Shown: piece after piece, positions 3,359 through 31,114 of the stretch
How positions within the stretch are numbered: the stretch's first letter is position 1
How the letters are laid out: each line of letters opens with the position of its first letter
DNA from: Bacteroidota bacterium
GTDB lineage: Bacteria > Bacteroidota > Bacteroidia > Flavobacteriales > Weeksellaceae
NCBI GenBank assembly: GCA_018266955.1
Contig: JAFDZI010000021.1
Span: 1-64,000 of the forward strand
DNA length: 64,000 bases
Direction: 5' to 3'
The notes under the pieces: model-generated
Database searches by the model: none
What the model was told of the DNA's origin: nothing
The model's input: only the letters and a program-made list of their open reading frames with translations
Position numbers and translations under genes: made by a program

Positions 3359-5118
3359 TGAATTTTACCAACTTTATCCATAAAAACGCAGATACATTTC
3401 TGAAAAAACCGGCTTTAGGCTTCAAAAAAGACAACGAGTGGAAGGAAATTAATTGGTCCATGTTGCGAACCCTTGTGTACAAAACTGCCAATGCGCTTAG
3501 GAATGCCGGGATAAAAGAGAATGACAAAGTAGCCATTTATTCCGAAAACTGCGCCGAATGGATTTGCTTTGACCTCGCCGTAATGGCGTTGGGAGCCATT
3601 ACAGTTCCTATTTATGCCACCAATACTGCCGAACAAGCCTCTTATATTTTGGACGATTCCGAAGCCAAAATTATATTGACCGGTAACCAAGAACAATACG
3701 ATGCGGCATTTGAAATTATTCAGAATTCCCAATATTTAGAGAAAATTATCGTCATCAAAAAATCGGTTTGGATAAAAAAAGAAAATTCTGAATATCTGGA
3801 AAATTTCATAAAACCTGCCCAATCGAATTTTGCCATTGTAGAAAAATCCAGTGATGATGTTGCCACGCTCATTTATACTTCTGGTACAACAGGCGTTCCC
3901 AAAGGAGTGATGCTAACCCATGGTAATTTTCAAAAATGTATAGAGGCTCATTTTGAGTTTTTTCAATTTAAAAATTTTGTCAACGAACATTCCTTAGCTT
4001 TTCTACCCTTAACTCATGTTTTCGAAAGAAGTTGGACATTGCTCTGTTTGTACGGAGGTGCTAAAGTGTCGTTTTTGGAAAATCCAAAACTCATTGCCCA
4101 CGCTTTGGTAGAGGTGAAGCCTTCGTTGATGTGCTCCGTGCCTAGGTTTTACCAAAAAATTTATGGCGGCATTCAGGAAATGGTGGCTACCAGTTCTCCA
4201 GCCAAAAAGAAGATTTTTTCTTGGGCAATTTCTGTGGGTAAAGAAGTGGCTGAAAGAAAGAGAAATCAGCAATCGTTGCCGTTTATTTTAGGATTTAAAA
4301 ATAAAATTGCCGATGCCATGGTTTTCGGTAAAATAAAGAAAAAATTAGGTGGAAATCTTTGGTTTATGCCTTGTGGTGGTGCTTCCATCTCAGAAGAAGT
4401 TACTCGGTTTTTTGATGCGATGGGCATTCACATCACCGTAGGATATGGACTGACAGAAACTACGGCAACGCTTACCGCTTTTCCTTTTACCCAATATGAA
4501 CACGGTTCCGCAGGAAAACCTTTGGGAAATACTCAAATAAAAATAGGCGAGAACGATGAAATTCTTGCCAAAGGCGATGGCATTATGAAGGGATATTATA
4601 AAAAACCTGAAGAAACCGCCAAAGTTTTCACCGAAGAGGGATGGTTCAAAACGGGGGATGCCGGGAAATTTGATGCTGCTGGAAATTTATACATCACTGA
4701 TCGAATCAAAGATCTGATGAAAACATCCAACGGAAAGTATATTGCGCCACAACCGATTGAAAACCTATTGTCCAATAACAATCTGGTACAACAAGTGATG
4801 TTGATAGCCGAAGGAAAACCTTTTGTGACCGCACTTATCGTCCCGAATTTTGAATTTTTACAAGAAAAACTCAAAGAGATGAAAATTCCGTTTACGCACT
4901 GGAACGAGATTGTAGAAATGCCGGAAATAAAAGAATTATACAAAACGACCCTTGATGAAATTCAGCACCAACTTCCTGGGGTGGAAAAAGTAAAGAAATT
5001 TACCTTGATGCCATCGGAATTTGAAATTTCAACGGGTGAGATAACGCCTACTTTAAAAATAAAAAGAAACATTGTTTTGCAAAAATATCAATCGTTGATT
5101 GATGCTATGTATGTTTAA
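3358..5118 (+). CDS. Long-chain acyl-CoA synthetase (AMP-binding)
   Basis: 586 residues of the adenylate-forming superfamily. It activates a fatty acid with ATP to acyl-AMP and then acyl-CoA. Visible motifs are the P-loop TSGTTGVPKG (about 174-183), the YGLTET core, GWFKTGDAGKF, and the hinge/C-terminal ITDRIKDLMKTSNGKYIAP. The length fits bacterial and eukaryotic-type long-chain (FadD/FAA-like) enzymes. It is translationally coupled to the upstream epimerase, and mvaD follows after 21 nt, making a likely three-gene operon around lipid and isoprenoid metabolism. Chain-length preference cannot be read off. Confidence 0.92.
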   Translation: MNFTNFIHKNADTFLKKPALGFKKDNEWKEINWSMLRTLVYKTANALRNAGIKENDKVAIYSENCAEWICFDLAVMALGAITVPIYATNTAEQASYILDDSEAKIILTGNQEQYDAAFEIIQNSQYLEKIIVIKKSVWIKKENSEYLENFIKPAQSNFAIVEKSSDDVATLIYTSGTTGVPKGVMLTHGNFQKCIEAHFEFFQFKNFVNEHSLAFLPLTHVFERSWTLLCLYGGAKVSFLENPKLIAHALVEVKPSLMCSVPRFYQKIYGGIQEMVATSSPAKKKIFSWAISVGKEVAERKRNQQSLPFILGFKNKIADAMVFGKIKKKLGGNLWFMPCGGASISEEVTRFFDAMGIHITVGYGLTETTATLTAFPFTQYEHGSAGKPLGNTQIKIGENDEILAKGDGIMKGYYKKPEETAKVFTEEGWFKTGDAGKFDAAGNLYITDRIKDLMKTSNGKYIAPQPIENLLSNNNLVQQVMLIAEGKPFVTALIVPNFEFLQEKLKEMKIPFTHWNEIVEMPEIKELYKTTLDEIQHQLPGVEKVKKFTLMPSEFEISTGEITPTLKIKRNIVLQKYQSLIDAMYV

Positions 5119-25180: not shown

Positions 25181-25405
25181 CAAGACAATATGCAAATATT
25201 GAACTGACAGAAAAAAAAGACAGAACATTTGCCACCGAACAAATGGCACATTTTTTTTTCCCGACACACAAGCCAACGCTCCAAAAACCAAAAGAGCCAT
25301 TTTTCCCCACCGCTCGAATAGAGAAATTTTCAAACATTTTTTATCACGAAAAACGATATATTGAAAAATATAAATTAAATTTGTGACTTAACATCTTTAA
25401 AAGCA
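25181..25405 (+). promoter_or_regulatory. Upstream region of the restriction-modification island
   Basis: This spacer has an imperfect hairpin, TTTGCC (25229-25234) facing GGCA (25245-25248), followed by nine T residues, and a -7 box TAAATTTG at 25376-25383, 23 nt before the regulator gene. No TTG lies at the standard distance. Low GC and homopolymer runs distinguish it from the flanks. Confidence 0.4.
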
Positions 25406-25615
25406 ATGAACAGAATTAAAGAAGTACTTGAAGAAAAAGGAATTAAACAAACTTGGTTGGCTGAACAATTGGGAAAAAGCTATAATATGGTCAATGGTTA
25501 TGTTCAAAATCGACAGCAACCAAGACTTGAAGTACTGTACGAGATAGCGAATATTCTCCAAATTGACATTAAAGAACTTTTAAAAACGAACGAAGAAGTT
25601 TACAAATGCAAGTAG
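25406..25615 (+). CDS. XRE-family transcriptional regulator of the R-M island
   Basis: 69 residues, almost entirely one HTH_3/XRE domain: IKQTWLAEQLGKSYNMVNGY (about 14-33), then QPRLEVLYEIANILQIDIKE. Size and position fit a controller protein that times restriction-modification expression. Its stop codon (25613-25615) overlaps the next gene by 10 nt, so the two are translationally coupled. Whether it represses or activates cannot be told. Confidence 0.85.
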   Translation: MNRIKEVLEEKGIKQTWLAEQLGKSYNMVNGYVQNRQQPRLEVLYEIANILQIDIKELLKTNEEVYKCK

Positions 25616-26595
25616 TAATCGACATATTAGAAAATGAAATCATCGAGAAATATCCTGATATTCTCGAAATACTACTGCGTGACCAAACTACTCAAAAAAA
25701 CATCTTTTGGGCAACAGACAACTACGAACATTTAGGAGATTCATACAAATTCAATTCTGAAATTTTATTTAGTTCGATTACCGGAGAAAACGGCAATATC
25801 ATAATGCCGAGAGTGTACAAAGACAAAGTTTTACAACTTTCTCGTTCCAAAGAAATGGCAGAAGTTTTCACACCATCTTGGATTTGCAATGCTCAAAACA
25901 ATGCAGTGGACAATTCTTGGTTTGGTAGAGAAAACGTATTCAACAAAGAAATCTTATTAGAAAACGGGACTAAATCTTGGGAAACTACCAAAGAAAAAAT
26001 CTTTTTCCCAAAAGATAAAACTTGGCAAGATTATATTCTTGACACTCGATTAGAAATCACTTGTGGAGAAGCTCCCTATTTGGTTAGCAGATACGACACC
26101 ACAACAGGAGAATCTATTAACATCGAAAACCGAATCGGACTTTTAGACCGAAAACTTAGAGTAATAAATGAAAATGTAAATTCTGAAAAAGAATGGATAA
26201 ATGCCGTTGAAGTTGCCTACAAAAATATTTACGGTTTTGAATGGCAAGGCGACAGTTTGCTTTTGGCTCGTGAGGCGTTATTGATTACTTTTATTGAAAA
26301 CTTTACATACAAGTTTGAAACTGAACCCACTCTTGAAACCATCAAAAATATTGCACATATTATTTCTTGGAATATTTGGCAAATGGACGGATTAAAAGGA
26401 GTTATCCCTAATAGTTGCAAAGATGAAATCATAGAAACGGCAACGATTTTCGAAACCCAAACAGAAATCAGAAAATGTAAAGGTTGCGAAAAACAAGATT
26501 TGAAAAAGATAAAGTTCCACAACGGAATTTATTGCAATATTATGGACTGGGGAATTGAACAGCCTATACGGTTTATTGACCTTTTAGAAAAATAA
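25606..26595 (+). CDS. Methyltransferase-like subunit of the R-M island, no NPPY motif
   Basis: 329 residues. AEVFTPSWICNAQNN (about 84-98) resembles the motif X region of N6-adenine methyltransferases. LEITCGEAPYLVSRYD (about 148-163) looks like a degenerate S-adenosylmethionine motif I, and IYGFEWQGDSLLLAREALL like motifs II-III. No (N/D/S)PP(Y/F/W) catalytic tetrapeptide exists anywhere in the protein. A CxxC pair (RKCKGCEK) lies near residue 287. It probably acts as a partner of the large protein 3 nt downstream, for recognition, allostery or a diverged transferase role. The function is inferred from context. Confidence 0.65.
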   Translation: MQVVIDILENEIIEKYPDILEILLRDQTTQKNIFWATDNYEHLGDSYKFNSEILFSSITGENGNIIMPRVYKDKVLQLSRSKEMAEVFTPSWICNAQNNAVDNSWFGRENVFNKEILLENGTKSWETTKEKIFFPKDKTWQDYILDTRLEITCGEAPYLVSRYDTTTGESINIENRIGLLDRKLRVINENVNSEKEWINAVEVAYKNIYGFEWQGDSLLLAREALLITFIENFTYKFETEPTLETIKNIAHIISWNIWQMDGLKGVIPNSCKDEIIETATIFETQTEIRKCKGCEKQDLKKIKFHNGIYCNIMDWGIEQPIRFIDLLEK

Positions 26596-26598
26596 GGA

Positions 26599-29500
26599 AT
26601 GAGTGAATTGAACAATATAAATGTAGATATACTTGATAATTTAATCATTGGTAGAGTTGATCCACATATCTATGCTTTCACTACCGAAACCATTCCGAAT
26701 TATCTGAAAGTTGGCGATACCTATCGTCCGCTTGAAACGAGATTGAATGAATGGAGGAAACATTTTCCAAACCTTGAAAAGAAGTTTGAAAATATTGCAA
26801 AAGTTGATGACGAAACTTTTTTCAGAGATTTTGCTGTTCACTATTTCTTAGAAAACGATTTAAAAAGAAAGCGTTTAGGTCGTGATGTTTTTAAAAACAT
26901 TCCCTACTACTCCAACGAGTTTTTTGAAAATGCAACTGAACAAGATTTGCAAGAAGCGATAAAAGATATTGAAAACGGACACAAAAACAATGACCCGAAA
27001 TATCAATATTATCGTTTTGATGAAAGTCATATTCCCATTGTACACACCTATCAAAGAACGGAGAACTATAATCCAAGACCTAACCAACAAGAAACGATAA
27101 AAAAATTTCGTGAAGCAATCGACAAAGGAAGAACAAATTTGTTGATGTATGCTGTAATGCGTTTTGGTAAATCGTTTACTTCAATGTGTTGTGCCGTTGA
27201 AATGGGTGCAAAATCGGTGGTGGTGGTTTCCGCAAAAGCCGATGTAAAGGAAGAATGGAAAAAAACGGTTGAAAGCCATATCAAATTTGACGGATATAGT
27301 TTTTTGGATAGCAATTCGCTGTTGCAAAGTGATACGGTAATTACCGAAAAACGACAAGCAGATGAAAAATTTGTGCTTTTTCTGACCTTACAAGATTTGC
27401 AAGGCGATGAAATCAAAACAAAACACAAAGAACTTTTTAAAAATCAGATTGATTTACTTTTAATTGACGAAACGCATTTTGGAGCAAGAGCCGAAGAATA
27501 CGGCAAAGTATTAAAAACAGAAAAGCTCACCAAAAGCCAATTAAGAAATGAGTTAAAACTCAACGATAATACATTAGATGATTTAGAAATAACCAATAAG
27601 GTTTTTAATACAAAAATTCGCATTCATCTTTCGGGAACACCTTACCGAATTTTAATGAACAGCGAGTTTACCGATGATGACATTATTGCGTTTTATCAGT
27701 TTACAAATATTGCAGAAGACCAAGAAAAATGGGATGTAGAAAACCTTAATAAAGACGAAATAAAAGAATGGGATAATCCGTATTACGGCTTTCCGCAAAT
27801 GGTGCGTTTTGCTTTTAACCCTAACGAATCTTCCCGAAAAAAAATGGAAGAACTGAAAAAGAATGGCATTACCTACGCTTTTTCAGAACTTTTCAAACCG
27901 CAATCTATCACGAAAGACAACCAAAATGGACTTCACAAAAAGTTCATTCACGAAACCGAAATTTTAGATTTACTGAAAGTCATTGACGGTTCGGAAATGG
28001 ACGAAAATTTATTAAGTTTCTTGGATTACGACAAAATCAAAGAGGGCAAAATGTGCCGACATATCGTTTGCGTTTTGCCTTACCGGGCTTCTTGTGATGC
28101 TTTGGAAGAACTCATCAAAAATCACGACTTCAAACATCTTTCGGGTTACGAAATCATCAATATTTCGGGTGTTGAGAACGAAAGAAATTTTAAAGATACA
28201 CAAGCTGTACAAGCTAAAATCAAAAATTGCGAAAGTGAGAATATAAAAACTATCACTTTAACGGTAAACAGAATGCTGACAGGTAGCACCGTTCCAGACT
28301 GGGACACAATGCTTTACTTGAAAGACACATCTTCTCCGCAAGAATACGACCAAGCGATTTTCCGTTTGCAAAATCAATACATCAGAGTTAATAAAGAATC
28401 CAATGGTGATGTGGTTAAATTCAATATGAAACCACAAACCTTGTTGGTCGATTTTAACCCGAACAGAATGTTCCAAATGCAGGAACAAAAAGCACAGATT
28501 TACAACGTAAACACAGACAAAAACGGAAATGGTTTACTGGCAGAAAGAATCAAACGAGAACTTGAAATCTCCCCTATCATTGTGTTGAACAACAACAAAA
28601 TGGTAGAAATTCAACCAACCGACATTTTGGACGCTGTTCGTCAATATTCTAATAGTAGAAGTGTAATAGATGAAGCTACAACCATTTCCATAGACATGAA
28701 TCTGTTGGATATTGAAGCCATAAAAGCTGAAATTGAAAGACAAAATGCAATTAATTCTCGAAACGGAATAGAATTAAAACCGGGAAAAGGAAAAGGCGAT
28801 GATATTAACCCTCCTACACCACCAGGAACTAATGGAACAGAAGAAGATGAACCACCTAAGCCTATACCACCAAATACAATCAAAGAGCCTGAACCAGATT
28901 ACAAAGGTCAGTTTGCCATGTATTACGCTCGGATTTTGTTCTTTGCATTCTTGACAGATTCAAGAGTAAAATCTTTGCAAGAAATCATCAATGAAATTGA
29001 AAACAATGCTGATAATCAAAGAATTTCAAACAACTTAAACCTTGACAAGCAAATACTTTCGTTGTTTCAAAAACACATCAATCCGTTTATATTAAGCGAA
29101 TTAGATTATAAAATCCAGAACATCAATTCATTGGCAAACGACACCTCTATTTCTCCGATAGAAAGAGCGAGTAATGCAATGAAAAAATTCAGTCGTTTGT
29201 CGGATTCGGAAGTGGTAACACCCGAAACGGTTACGGATATGATGATAAACGCATTACCCGAAAACGCAATAAATAAAAACACAAAGATATTGGATATAGC
29301 TTCTAAACAAGGTGAATTTGTGTATGCTGTTTACAAGAAATTCGGGAAAGAAATTGCCAATAATTTTTACGCTATTCCAACCTCAAAAATTGCGTACGAA
29401 TTTACCCTAAAAGTTTATAAATTATTAGAATTAGATATGGAACTCATCGAAAAAGATTACACCGCTTATGATTTAATCAAAGACAAATCTTTGGTTGAAA

Positions 29501-30561
29501 ACGGAATGCTCCAAGTCAATGGAAAGAAACTAAAGTTTGATGTGATTGTGGGAAACCCGCCATATCAGGACAGAAGAGAAGGAACAAGCGATAATCCTAT
29601 TTATCATCTGTTTATGAATGTTTCTTATGGTTTGGCTGGAAAAGTTATTTTAATTACACCTGGAAGATTTTTGTTTAATGCAGGAAAAACTCCAAATCAA
29701 TGGAATGAAAAAATGTTAAATGACAAACATTTAAAAGTCAAGTCATATTTTAATAAAAGTAGTGATGCGTTTCCAGAAGTGCAATTGCCAGGAGGAATGG
29801 TAATTACATTAAGAGATAACAAACAAAATTTTGATAAAATTGGTGTCTTTTCAAAATTTAAAGAACTTAATACCATTTTACAAAAAGTAACTAATGCTAA
29901 AGATTTTGAACCAATTGATAGTAAAGTGTTTACACAAAATAAATTTGAATTAGAAACTTTATATAAAGATTACCCTGATTATAAAAACATTATTGGTAGT
30001 AATGGCAGAGAGAAACGATTAACAACTTCGATATTTGACCAATTATCAATTTTTACCGAAAATCCTAAAAACGAAAACGATGTATGTGTAATTGGCTTAA
30101 TTAAAAACAAAAGAACTTATCGTTTTATTCCTGCCAATTATATTGAACAACACATAAATACGAAAAAATTTAAAATTATTCTTCCTAAAAGTAATGGTTC
30201 AGGTGCATTGGGAGAAGTTGTTCCTACTCCTTTAATTGGAGAGCCTTTAATTGGAGAAATTGGAACTGGTTATACACAATCATTTATAAGTATTGGCGCT
30301 TTCGATTCAAATAAAGAAGCTGAAGCTTGCTTAAAATACATAAAAACAAAATTCTCAAGAGCAATGCTCGGCACATTAAAAGTTACACAAGACAATAATA
30401 AAGATGTTTGGAAGTATGTTCCAATGCAAGATTTTACTTCCAATTCAGTTATAAACTGGTCAAAATCAATTGCTGAAATTGACCAACAATTATATGAAAA
30501 ATACAAATTAACCAACGATGAAATCGAATTTATTGAAAAAACAATAAAACCAATGGACTAA
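26599..30561 (+). CDS. Single-chain restriction-modification enzyme: GIY-YIG nuclease, SF2 helicase, N6-adenine methyltransferase, specificity region
   Basis: 1320 residues. A GIY-YIG-like nuclease is at the N-terminus (IYAF 24-27, YLKVGDT 35-41, Arg48, Glu107). An SF2 helicase/translocase follows (RPNQQETIKKF, Walker A-like MRFGKS 187-192, DETH 290-293, SGTPYR 345-350). A Pro-rich linker lies near 735-765. Then comes an Eco57I-like methyltransferase (motif I region ILDIASKQGEF near 895, motif IV VGNPPYQD near 985) and a C-terminal part, likely target recognition. The order is that of translocating type ISP/IIG enzymes, but with GIY-YIG in place of the usual Mrr-type nuclease. It would cut unmethylated foreign DNA and methylate self DNA. 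The last 330 residues are visibly more AT-rich in codon use. Confidence 0.82.
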   Translation: MSELNNINVDILDNLIIGRVDPHIYAFTTETIPNYLKVGDTYRPLETRLNEWRKHFPNLEKKFENIAKVDDETFFRDFAVHYFLENDLKRKRLGRDVFKNIPYYSNEFFENATEQDLQEAIKDIENGHKNNDPKYQYYRFDESHIPIVHTYQRTENYNPRPNQQETIKKFREAIDKGRTNLLMYAVMRFGKSFTSMCCAVEMGAKSVVVVSAKADVKEEWKKTVESHIKFDGYSFLDSNSLLQSDTVITEKRQADEKFVLFLTLQDLQGDEIKTKHKELFKNQIDLLLIDETHFGARAEEYGKVLKTEKLTKSQLRNELKLNDNTLDDLEITNKVFNTKIRIHLSGTPYRILMNSEFTDDDIIAFYQFTNIAEDQEKWDVENLNKDEIKEWDNPYYGFPQMVRFAFNPNESSRKKMEELKKNGITYAFSELFKPQSITKDNQNGLHKKFIHETEILDLLKVIDGSEMDENLLSFLDYDKIKEGKMCRHIVCVLPYRASCDALEELIKNHDFKHLSGYEIINISGVENERNFKDTQAVQAKIKNCESENIKTITLTVNRMLTGSTVPDWDTMLYLKDTSSPQEYDQAIFRLQNQYIRVNKESNGDVVKFNMKPQTLLVDFNPNRMFQMQEQKAQIYNVNTDKNGNGLLAERIKRELEISPIIVLNNNKMVEIQPTDILDAVRQYSNSRSVIDEATTISIDMNLLDIEAIKAEIERQNAINSRNGIELKPGKGKGDDINPPTPPGTNGTEEDEPPKPIPPNTIKEPEPDYKGQFAMYYARILFFAFLTDSRVKSLQEIINEIENNADNQRISNNLNLDKQILSLFQKHINPFILSELDYKIQNINSLANDTSISPIERASNAMKKFSRLSDSEVVTPETVTDMMINALPENAINKNTKILDIASKQGEFVYAVYKKFGKEIANNFYAIPTSKIAYEFTLKVYKLLELDMELIEKDYTAYDLIKDKSLVENGMLQVNGKKLKFDVIVGNPPYQDRREGTSDNPIYHLFMNVSYGLAGKVILITPGRFLFNAGKTPNQWNEKMLNDKHLKVKSYFNKSSDAFPEVQLPGGMVITLRDNKQNFDKIGVFSKFKELNTILQKVTNAKDFEPIDSKVFTQNKFELETLYKDYPDYKNIIGSNGREKRLTTSIFDQLSIFTENPKNENDVCVIGLIKNKRTYRFIPANYIEQHINTKKFKIILPKSNGSGALGEVVPTPLIGEPLIGEIGTGYTQSFISIGAFDSNKEAEACLKYIKTKFSRAMLGTLKVTQDNNKDVWKYVPMQDFTSNSVINWSKSIAEIDQQLYEKYKLTNDEIEFIEKTIKPMD

Positions 30562-30869
30562 TGATGAAGGCAATTCGATATGAAAAAGATTCAGTTTTAA
30601 TCCAAGATAGTAAAATAAAGGCTTGGGTTGATATATGGATTGAAGATGAAGATGTGATTTGCGATTGGAATCAAAACATCTTCATTATGACAGACCCAAA
30701 AGATGTTGCTCTAAAAAAATGGCAGGATAATTTAGAGCATTTTGAGGACGCTACAAGTTTAGCTTTAGAAACATTAGAAAATGCTGGTATCATTTATCAA
30801 GACGAAAATGCAAAATGGCATCAATCAGAGAAATATCATACCACAATAGGTTCTATACCAATAAATTAA
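30561..30869 (+). CDS. Small protein of the R-M island, unknown
   Basis: 102 residues starting at the TAATG overlap with the large enzyme, so it is co-translated. The product is acidic and Trp-rich (AWVDIWIEDEDVICDWNQN) and has no family I recognise. A second, broken version of its first 25 codons lies just downstream (30923-31091), which shows this small gene is a recurring companion of the large gene's 3' end. It could be an inhibitor, chaperone or nuclease-modulating subunit; this is only inferred from position. Confidence 0.6.
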   Translation: MMKAIRYEKDSVLIQDSKIKAWVDIWIEDEDVICDWNQNIFIMTDPKDVALKKWQDNLEHFEDATSLALETLENAGIIYQDENAKWHQSEKYHTTIGSIPIN

Positions 30870-31091
30870 CTGACCAACGATGAAATTGAGTTTATTGAAA
30901 AAATGATCAAACCAATAGACTAATGATGAAGGCAATTCGATTTGAAAAAGATTCAGTTTTAATCCAAATCAGAAAAATCAATGCTTGGGTTGATATAAAT
31001 AGAAATCAAAGAAAATTTAATTGAACCTAAAGAATTACCTTTGCTTATCGAAAAAATCGAAAGTTTTAAAGAAAAAATAACAAAATACTAA
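30870..31091 (+). pseudogene. Degenerate second copy of the big-gene/small-gene junction
   Basis: From 30870 the sequence repeats the last 17 codons of the large enzyme in frame (TNDEIEFIEKMIKPID, then stop) and the TAATGATG overlap. It then repeats the start of the small gene (MMKAIRFEKDSVLIQ..INAWVDI). A one-base shift near 30992-31000 moves it into another frame, which continues as IEIKENLIEPKELPLLIEKI to a stop at 31089-31091. As it stands the frame ends early at 31021. The tail differs from the intact gene, so this is the remnant of an alternative allele, not a simple recent duplication. Confidence 0.8.
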
Positions 31092-31114
31092 AGAATAATC
31101 TCAGTTATATTATC

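Follow-up and report, generated by a model that had tools for sequence, protein, structure and literature searches.

Gene Content of the Locus

The locus considered here lies at positions 25406–30869 of a 64,000-nucleotide stretch of DNA from a Bacteroidota bacterium (contig JAFDZI010000021.1, positions 1 to 64,000, hereafter the window) and consists of four intact open reading frames (ORFs), which, like every other feature of the window listed with coordinates below, are on the forward (+) strand: an XRE/Cro-type regulator of 69 residues (25406–25615), a methyltransferase-like partner of 329 residues (25606–26595), a large enzyme of 1320 residues (26599–30561), and a Trp-rich protein of 102 residues (30561–30869). 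A first-pass annotation of this DNA had listed the same regulator, partner and small protein around the large enzyme, all of which we find in place and uninterrupted. It had also suggested a restriction-modification (R-M) system, in agreement with PADLOC, which assigns the large protein to REase_MTase_IIG (PDLC03626, 1201 bits) and the partner to MTase_II (PDLC03390, 413 bits), and with the nuclease, motor and N6-methyladenine (m6A) methyltransferase domains predicted by profile. The large protein, which has ~30 full-length homologues, appears to be a fusion of a restriction enzyme with a methyltransferase subunit (M2), and we argue below that the partner (M1) probably supplies the S-adenosylmethionine (SAM)-binding half of that methyltransferase.

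Division of the Methyltransferase Motifs between Two Proteins

The partner resembles the SAM-binding half of a gamma-class m6A methyltransferase, as indicated by its PADLOC match, its AlphaFold2 (AF2) model, and the fold matches of that model. Its motif I, RLEITCGEAPYL (26047–26082), follows the pattern [LM]E[IM][STA]CGEAPY in 29/29 homologues, with C153, G154, E155, A156, P157 and Y158 invariant across 25 sequences, and its motif II, YGFEWQGD (26230–26253), retains the acid (E or D in 29/29). The catalytic motif NPP[YFW], in turn, is found in 0/29 homologues of the partner, which has IRFIDLLEK at its C-terminal end, directly ahead of where NPPY would come; we read this segment as corresponding to KFDVIVG, the strand ahead of NPPY in the large protein. 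The AF2 model has a predicted template modeling score (pTM) of 0.80, with MmeI, CamA and BrxX as its best fold matches. These matches come from VIA-align, where gamma-class methyltransferases rank first, with Z ≥8 for MmeI only (8.5, 134 residues, 3.3 Å), while a Foldseek search with the partner model gave nothing better than E 0.6. As these Z values are modest, it is the sequence motifs that bear the half-methyltransferase argument. We note in addition a cluster of invariant Cys and His residues near the C-terminus of the partner (C271, C291, C294, H305 and C310), a possible zinc site that is apparently absent from the half-partners of the three-gene relatives and from the phage FNU4 protein, both of which are described below.

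The large protein shows the converse pattern. Its catalytic motif IV, NPPYQ (residues 986–990; 29554–29568), is present in 31/31 homologues, and the region ahead of it (~residues 853–984, with DIASKQGEF and YAIPTS; 29155–29550) would be a pseudo SAM-half, in which motif I (DIASKQGEF and variants) contains an invariant lysine, K903, and motif II lacks its acid. In alignments with solved relatives, the position of this lysine is occupied by glycine (DPACGCG in MmeI, DPACGTG in 3ufb). With Lys903 in place and the motif II acid missing, the SAM site of the large protein is, to judge by its motifs, degenerate.

The same division is seen in more diverged relatives, in which the system is spread over three genes that encode a half-partner of ~210–280 residues, an NPPY methyltransferase of ~500 residues, and a T5orf172-superfamily 2 (SF2) protein of ~840 residues. 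Here, NPPY is found in 0/29 half-partners, the motif II acid in 29/29, and an intact motif I in 28/29 (the remaining one is truncated), and the adjacent methyltransferases carry LDPxxK[ST]G[VI]FL together with NPPY. This reciprocal loss and retention of motifs between the partner and the NPPY protein holds in every complete locus examined. The half-partner profiles also match the N-terminus of the adjacent methyltransferase weakly (E ~1e-4 to 1e-7), which suggests a duplication.

The two proteins also occur together. Among 395 Bacteroidota genomes, the NPPY protein was found at E ≤1e-40 in 32, and a half-partner is present in 32/32 of these; conversely, the NPPY protein is present in 26/28 genomes with strong matches to the three-gene half-partner, with the other two containing half-partner fragments only. 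The first-pass annotation had described the large protein as a single-chain enzyme, and its domains do lie in one chain, but as the partner resembles the SAM-binding half of a methyltransferase, the large protein is probably not self-contained.

Natural Fusions and Splits at the NPPY Junction

Comparison of related loci places natural gene fusions and splits at the junction between strand 4 and NPPY. In the Fusobacterium phage FNU4, one protein matches the window partner at 45% identity over its N-terminal part and residues 976–1317 of the large protein at 37% identity over the rest, and carries no pseudo-half, nuclease or motor; a viral scan with this protein as query did not find further fusions. 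The C-terminal half (C-half) is a gene of its own, starting MKFD..GNPPYQ, in Treponema pTS1, in phage MT835780 and in a Lactiplantibacillus plasmid, where the SAM-half is a separate gene and the pseudo-half either closes the T5orf172-helicase protein or occupies the ORF that follows. In the Tenacibaculum phage PTm1, the helicase is missing and the pseudo-half is frameshifted, and the C-half, the XRE gene and the partner are intact. Taken together, these rearrangements point to a working methyltransferase made up of the partner half and the C-half. The pseudo-half thus seems to be extra to the working enzyme, yet it is retained in the helicase-bearing systems examined.

Related genes are found in further phages. 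If TAG is translated as Gln, the Prevotella megaphage Lak-A2 (L148, 5704–10047) encodes a 1447-residue protein related to the entire enzyme, and has a half-partner-like ORF close to it. The gut phage fragments L160 (676–1521), L175 (5932–6528) and L176 (5932–6534) carry the SAM-half partner only, with no NPPY half found in their records, and the large phages L162–L168 encode a SAM-half partner, and in some of them a distant match to the NPPY half lies elsewhere, mostly within ORFs of 1800–1930 residues. These matches weaken the notion of orphan SAM-halves in huge phages, since several of the records also contain a C-half match. Phages with half-methylases may turn them against restriction.

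Nuclease and Motor Domains of the Large Protein

The first-pass annotation had placed a GIY-YIG nuclease ahead of an SF2 motor and an Eco57I-type methyltransferase in the large protein, and had named IYAF, KVGDT, Arg48 and Glu107 as nuclease residues. A Pfam scan of the full-length protein missed the nuclease, and a scan of the N-terminus alone (residues 1–130), the comparison that the annotation had proposed, revealed a T5orf172 domain (PF10544; E=4.5e-7, 30.7 bits against a cut-off of 20 bits, model positions 2–100 of 101) at residues 23–124 (26665–26970). A T5orf172 match was also obtained in 23/23 relatives, and I24, Y25, K37, G39, T41, R48, D77, H81 and E107 are invariant across 23 sequences with identities down to 27%; the residues named earlier are thus present, and they are conserved.

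The nuclease is followed by a predicted SF2 translocase (~residues 150–690; 27046–28668), identified by ResIII and by Foldseek matches to LlaBIII and other SF2 motors. Its motifs RFGKS, DETH, SGTP and QAIFR are, together with NPPY, invariant or nearly so in relatives, and both ResIII (46.5 bits) and the Eco57I methylase (64.3 bits) score above their Pfam cut-offs, in support of the domain content originally proposed. The AlphaFold model of the large protein covers residues 1–1154 and resolves the methyltransferase and part of the motor. Foldseek ranks the type ISP enzyme LlaBIII first for this model (E=1.1e-16, aligned over model residues 155–1078), which agrees with the earlier comparison to type ISP enzymes with a different nuclease; sequence searches of the PDB with the large protein gave no match. 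The large protein would thus be an ISP-like motor restriction enzyme built around a GIY-YIG nuclease.

Target Recognition and Recombination

Directly past NPPYQ lies a hypervariable, putative target-recognition domain (TRD; ~residues 991–1240; 29571–30318), which is delimited by a drop in identity and by a break in homology to the related locus L024. Residues 1040–1240 are 10–91% identical to relatives, compared to 61–90% for the helicase part (full-length relatives, L052 excepted), and nucleotide homology to L024 breaks at nucleotide 2972 of the gene and returns at 3831. In the window itself, the 3′ end of the large gene and the start of the small gene recur in decayed form at 30868–30997, as a direct repeat of 30506–30635 (130 nucleotides, 88% identity, spacing 362) that reads LTNDEIEFIEKMIKPID and MMKAIRFEKDSVLIQ, and in locus L033 a second, partial 3′ copy stands immediately downstream of the large gene. 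We read these breakpoints and copies as the result of recombination that exchanges the recognition segment, in which case the specificity of the system would be swapped through exchange of the segment just past NPPY.

A stand-alone C-half ORF in L033 and L059 was considered as proof of trans-complementation and then dropped, as it is a partial tandem copy, 81% identical to the large gene from nucleotide 2713, with no usual start codon before a TTG just ahead of NPPY; it may therefore represent a TRD cassette. Extra partial NPPY/TRD copies are found in L033 (10479–11717), L121 (1866–2891), L129 (211–693) and L156 (11924–14127), and such copies beside the main gene are candidate TRD cassettes for specificity switching.

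Regulation, the Small Protein, and Chromosomal Insertion

The XRE protein is C-protein-like (HTH_26 and HTH_3 above cut-off). Its gene overlaps the start of the partner gene and is conserved ahead of it (66–97% identity) in no fewer than 18 related loci. Upstream of it lie a putative operator, the inverted repeat TATC...GATA (25342–25360), and a −7-like element, TAAATTTG (25376–25383). Most of the upstream regions aligned have TATCT-N9-AGATA at the operator position, or CTCATT..AATGAG in the case of distant relatives, an arrangement that would fit a self-regulating controller protein.

The Trp-rich protein is an optional component whose gene overlaps the large gene stop to start, and which directly follows the large gene in the window and in 6 other distinct related loci. 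No family above cut-off and no relatives were found for it in the libraries scanned, Pfam and PADLOC included. Its presence beside widely differing recognition domains (L024) means that it is not tied to specificity.

The chromosomal genes lgt and rarA are ~7 kb apart in the window, compared to ~1.4 kb in a genome of the same genus without the island (G002) and ~0.35 and ~0.5 kb in two other family members without it, and homology of the flanks to G002 ends at ~24437 and picks up again at 31111. Since lgt and rarA lie close together in all three relatives that lack the locus, the locus is an inserted island. Its composition is unremarkable, with the exception of the TRD part of the large gene (GC content 0.30, compared to 0.34–0.37).

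Interpretation and Alternative Explanations

Taking these observations together, we consider it probable, with good confidence, that the locus is an anti-phage, split-methylase R-M system of the DrdVI/MaeIV type, in which M2 has been fused to a GIY-YIG-helicase restriction subunit. M1 would provide the SAM-binding half of the m6A methyltransferase and the C-terminal third of the 1320-residue protein the catalytic NPPY and the TRD, such that the two would jointly methylate an adenine in their recognition site, which is probably asymmetric and modified on one strand. At an unmodified site, the SF2 motor would work on the DNA and the GIY-YIG domain would cut, with the XRE protein probably timing expression. 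The sequences show the domain content, the complementary loss of motifs, the co-occurrence, the natural fusions and splits, the swapping of TRDs and the insertion into the chromosome, and m6A formation by M1-2.DrdVI and M1-2.MaeIV has been reported by others; we infer the physical assembly of M1 and M2, the ATP-driven character of the cutting, the recognition site and the role of the regulator. Several points weigh against this assignment. Besides the inferred assembly, the DrdVI and MaeIV papers are silent on whether M1 or M2 alone was tried. In addition, the AlphaFold model (residues 1–1154) does not resolve the nuclease, with a predicted local distance difference test score (pLDDT) of ~25–41 over residues 1–60, such that the nuclease assignment comes from sequence profiles and not from a fold. 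Finally, the methyltransferase of the large protein is complete in the model (pLDDT ~84–93 over residues 870–990), where residues 872–1090 superimpose on M.TaqI with Z 16.5 (rmsd, the root-mean-square deviation, 2.5; 173 residues aligned) and the pseudo-half takes a normal methyltransferase-half fold, so that Lys903 may still permit SAM binding and the partner be merely accessory.

This last point, together with a domain order like that of LlaBIII, would suit a self-sufficient, type ISP-like enzyme with the partner as an accessory or regulatory pseudo-methyltransferase. We consider this quite improbable, however, given that in each complete locus examined it is the large protein that has lost and the partner that has kept the SAM-site residues, that the half-partner accompanies the NPPY protein in 32/32 Bacteroidota genomes, that FNU4 does without the pseudo-half but retains the partner half, and that PTm1 keeps its partner after loss of the helicase and pseudo-half. 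The retention of the pseudo-half in the other systems could also be accounted for by a refinement of the split-methylase reading, in which the pseudo-half, as a catalytically inactive copy of the SAM-binding half, and the SAM-loaded partner would compete for one C-half: with the partner docked, the enzyme would methylate, and with the pseudo-half docked, the motor-nuclease would scan and cut. Consistent with such a switch, the pseudo-half remains on the helicase side where the genes are split (pTS1, MT835780 and Lactiplantibacillus), is missing or disrupted in the systems that lack the helicase (FNU4 and PTm1), and has its motif I lysine conserved throughout the large-protein family. An ordinary heterodimer of a pseudo-methyltransferase and a half-methyltransferase would, however, give the identical sequence pattern, and in most three-gene loci the pseudo-half is on the methyltransferase polypeptide rather than on the helicase; we thus regard the switch as unlikely.

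A further alternative bears on the cutting step only, and has the enzyme cleave at a fixed distance in the manner of type IIG, with the helicase region serving conformational change rather than long-range translocation. REBASE reportedly lists a fixed cut position for DrdVI. DrdVI is moreover classed as IIG (PMC6430315), and PADLOC files the family likewise, but the SF2 motor motifs are conserved and the motor-methyltransferase layout is that of the translocating LlaBIII, which leaves fixed-distance cleavage a real possibility, at somewhat less than an even chance. Whichever way the DNA is cut, the split-methylase reading offers a reason for the NPPY-less “methylase” of a whole R-M family, namely that it is half an enzyme. 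It predicts that neither gene alone methylates, and it corrects the annotation in PADLOC and GenBank, where the halves are listed as separate methylases or restriction enzymes.

Comparison with Known Systems

While the layout had initially been proposed as possibly uncommon, it is in fact catalogued in PADLOC, DrdVI, a relative with three genes, has been cloned as a “split methylase” (PMC6430315, PMC10113651), and the layout is not especially rare, with strong partner matches in 7 (fused type) and 28 (three-gene type) of the 395 Bacteroidota genomes. M1-2.DrdVI, the genes of which were cloned in E. coli, gives m6A at GCAGCC (PMC6430315), and M1-M2.MaeIV of Methanococcus aeolicus gives m6A on one strand of GCACY (PMC10113651), where MaeIV and DrdVI are termed “split methylase/RM genes” (PMC10113651). 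The Deinococcus wulumuqiensis plasmid pDrdVI encodes a half-partner, an NPPY methyltransferase with the lysine motif, and a T5orf172-helicase (T5orf172 30.7 bits); we identify these three genes as DrdVI from the plasmid content, as PMC6430315 gives no gene coordinates. DrdVI thus shares with the window an NPPY-less half-partner, an NPPY methyltransferase whose motif I contains Lys, and a T5orf172 nuclease with an SF2 helicase, but has three separate genes where M2 and the restriction subunit form one polypeptide in the window, and a half-partner of ~212 residues, compared to 329 residues with a conserved Cys/His cluster. The archaeal MaeIV, compared here by description only, belongs to a split methylase/RM family similar to DrdVI.

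The type ISP enzymes LlaBIII and LlaGI resemble the window enzyme in having the order nuclease-SF2-methyltransferase-TRD in one chain, but differ in their nuclease, which is of the Mrr-type PD-(D/E)XK kind where the window enzyme has GIY-YIG (T5orf172); to our knowledge, they need no half-methyltransferase partner. As in type IIG enzymes, restriction and modification domains are joined in one protein, although modification probably needs the partner and the window enzyme has a complete SF2 motor, whereas we know of no such motor in classical IIG enzymes. MmeI, CamA, BrxX and M.TaqI share the gamma-class N6A fold of the partner and of the methyltransferase domain, but have the SAM motifs and NPPY together in one complete domain. 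The PADLOC models (REase_MTase_IIG PDLC03626, and MTase_II PDLC03390 and PDLC03375) match the large protein, the partner and the stand-alone C-half strongly but are named as separate enzymes, and the half-and-half relation is not in the names. We found no account of the division between halves or of the pseudo-half in the literature, which is weak evidence given that our coverage of it was partial. The family itself is already catalogued (PADLOC; DrdVI), and what is new is the clear sharing of one methyltransferase between two complementary halves, a division backed by natural fusions, together with the puzzle of the conserved pseudo-half.

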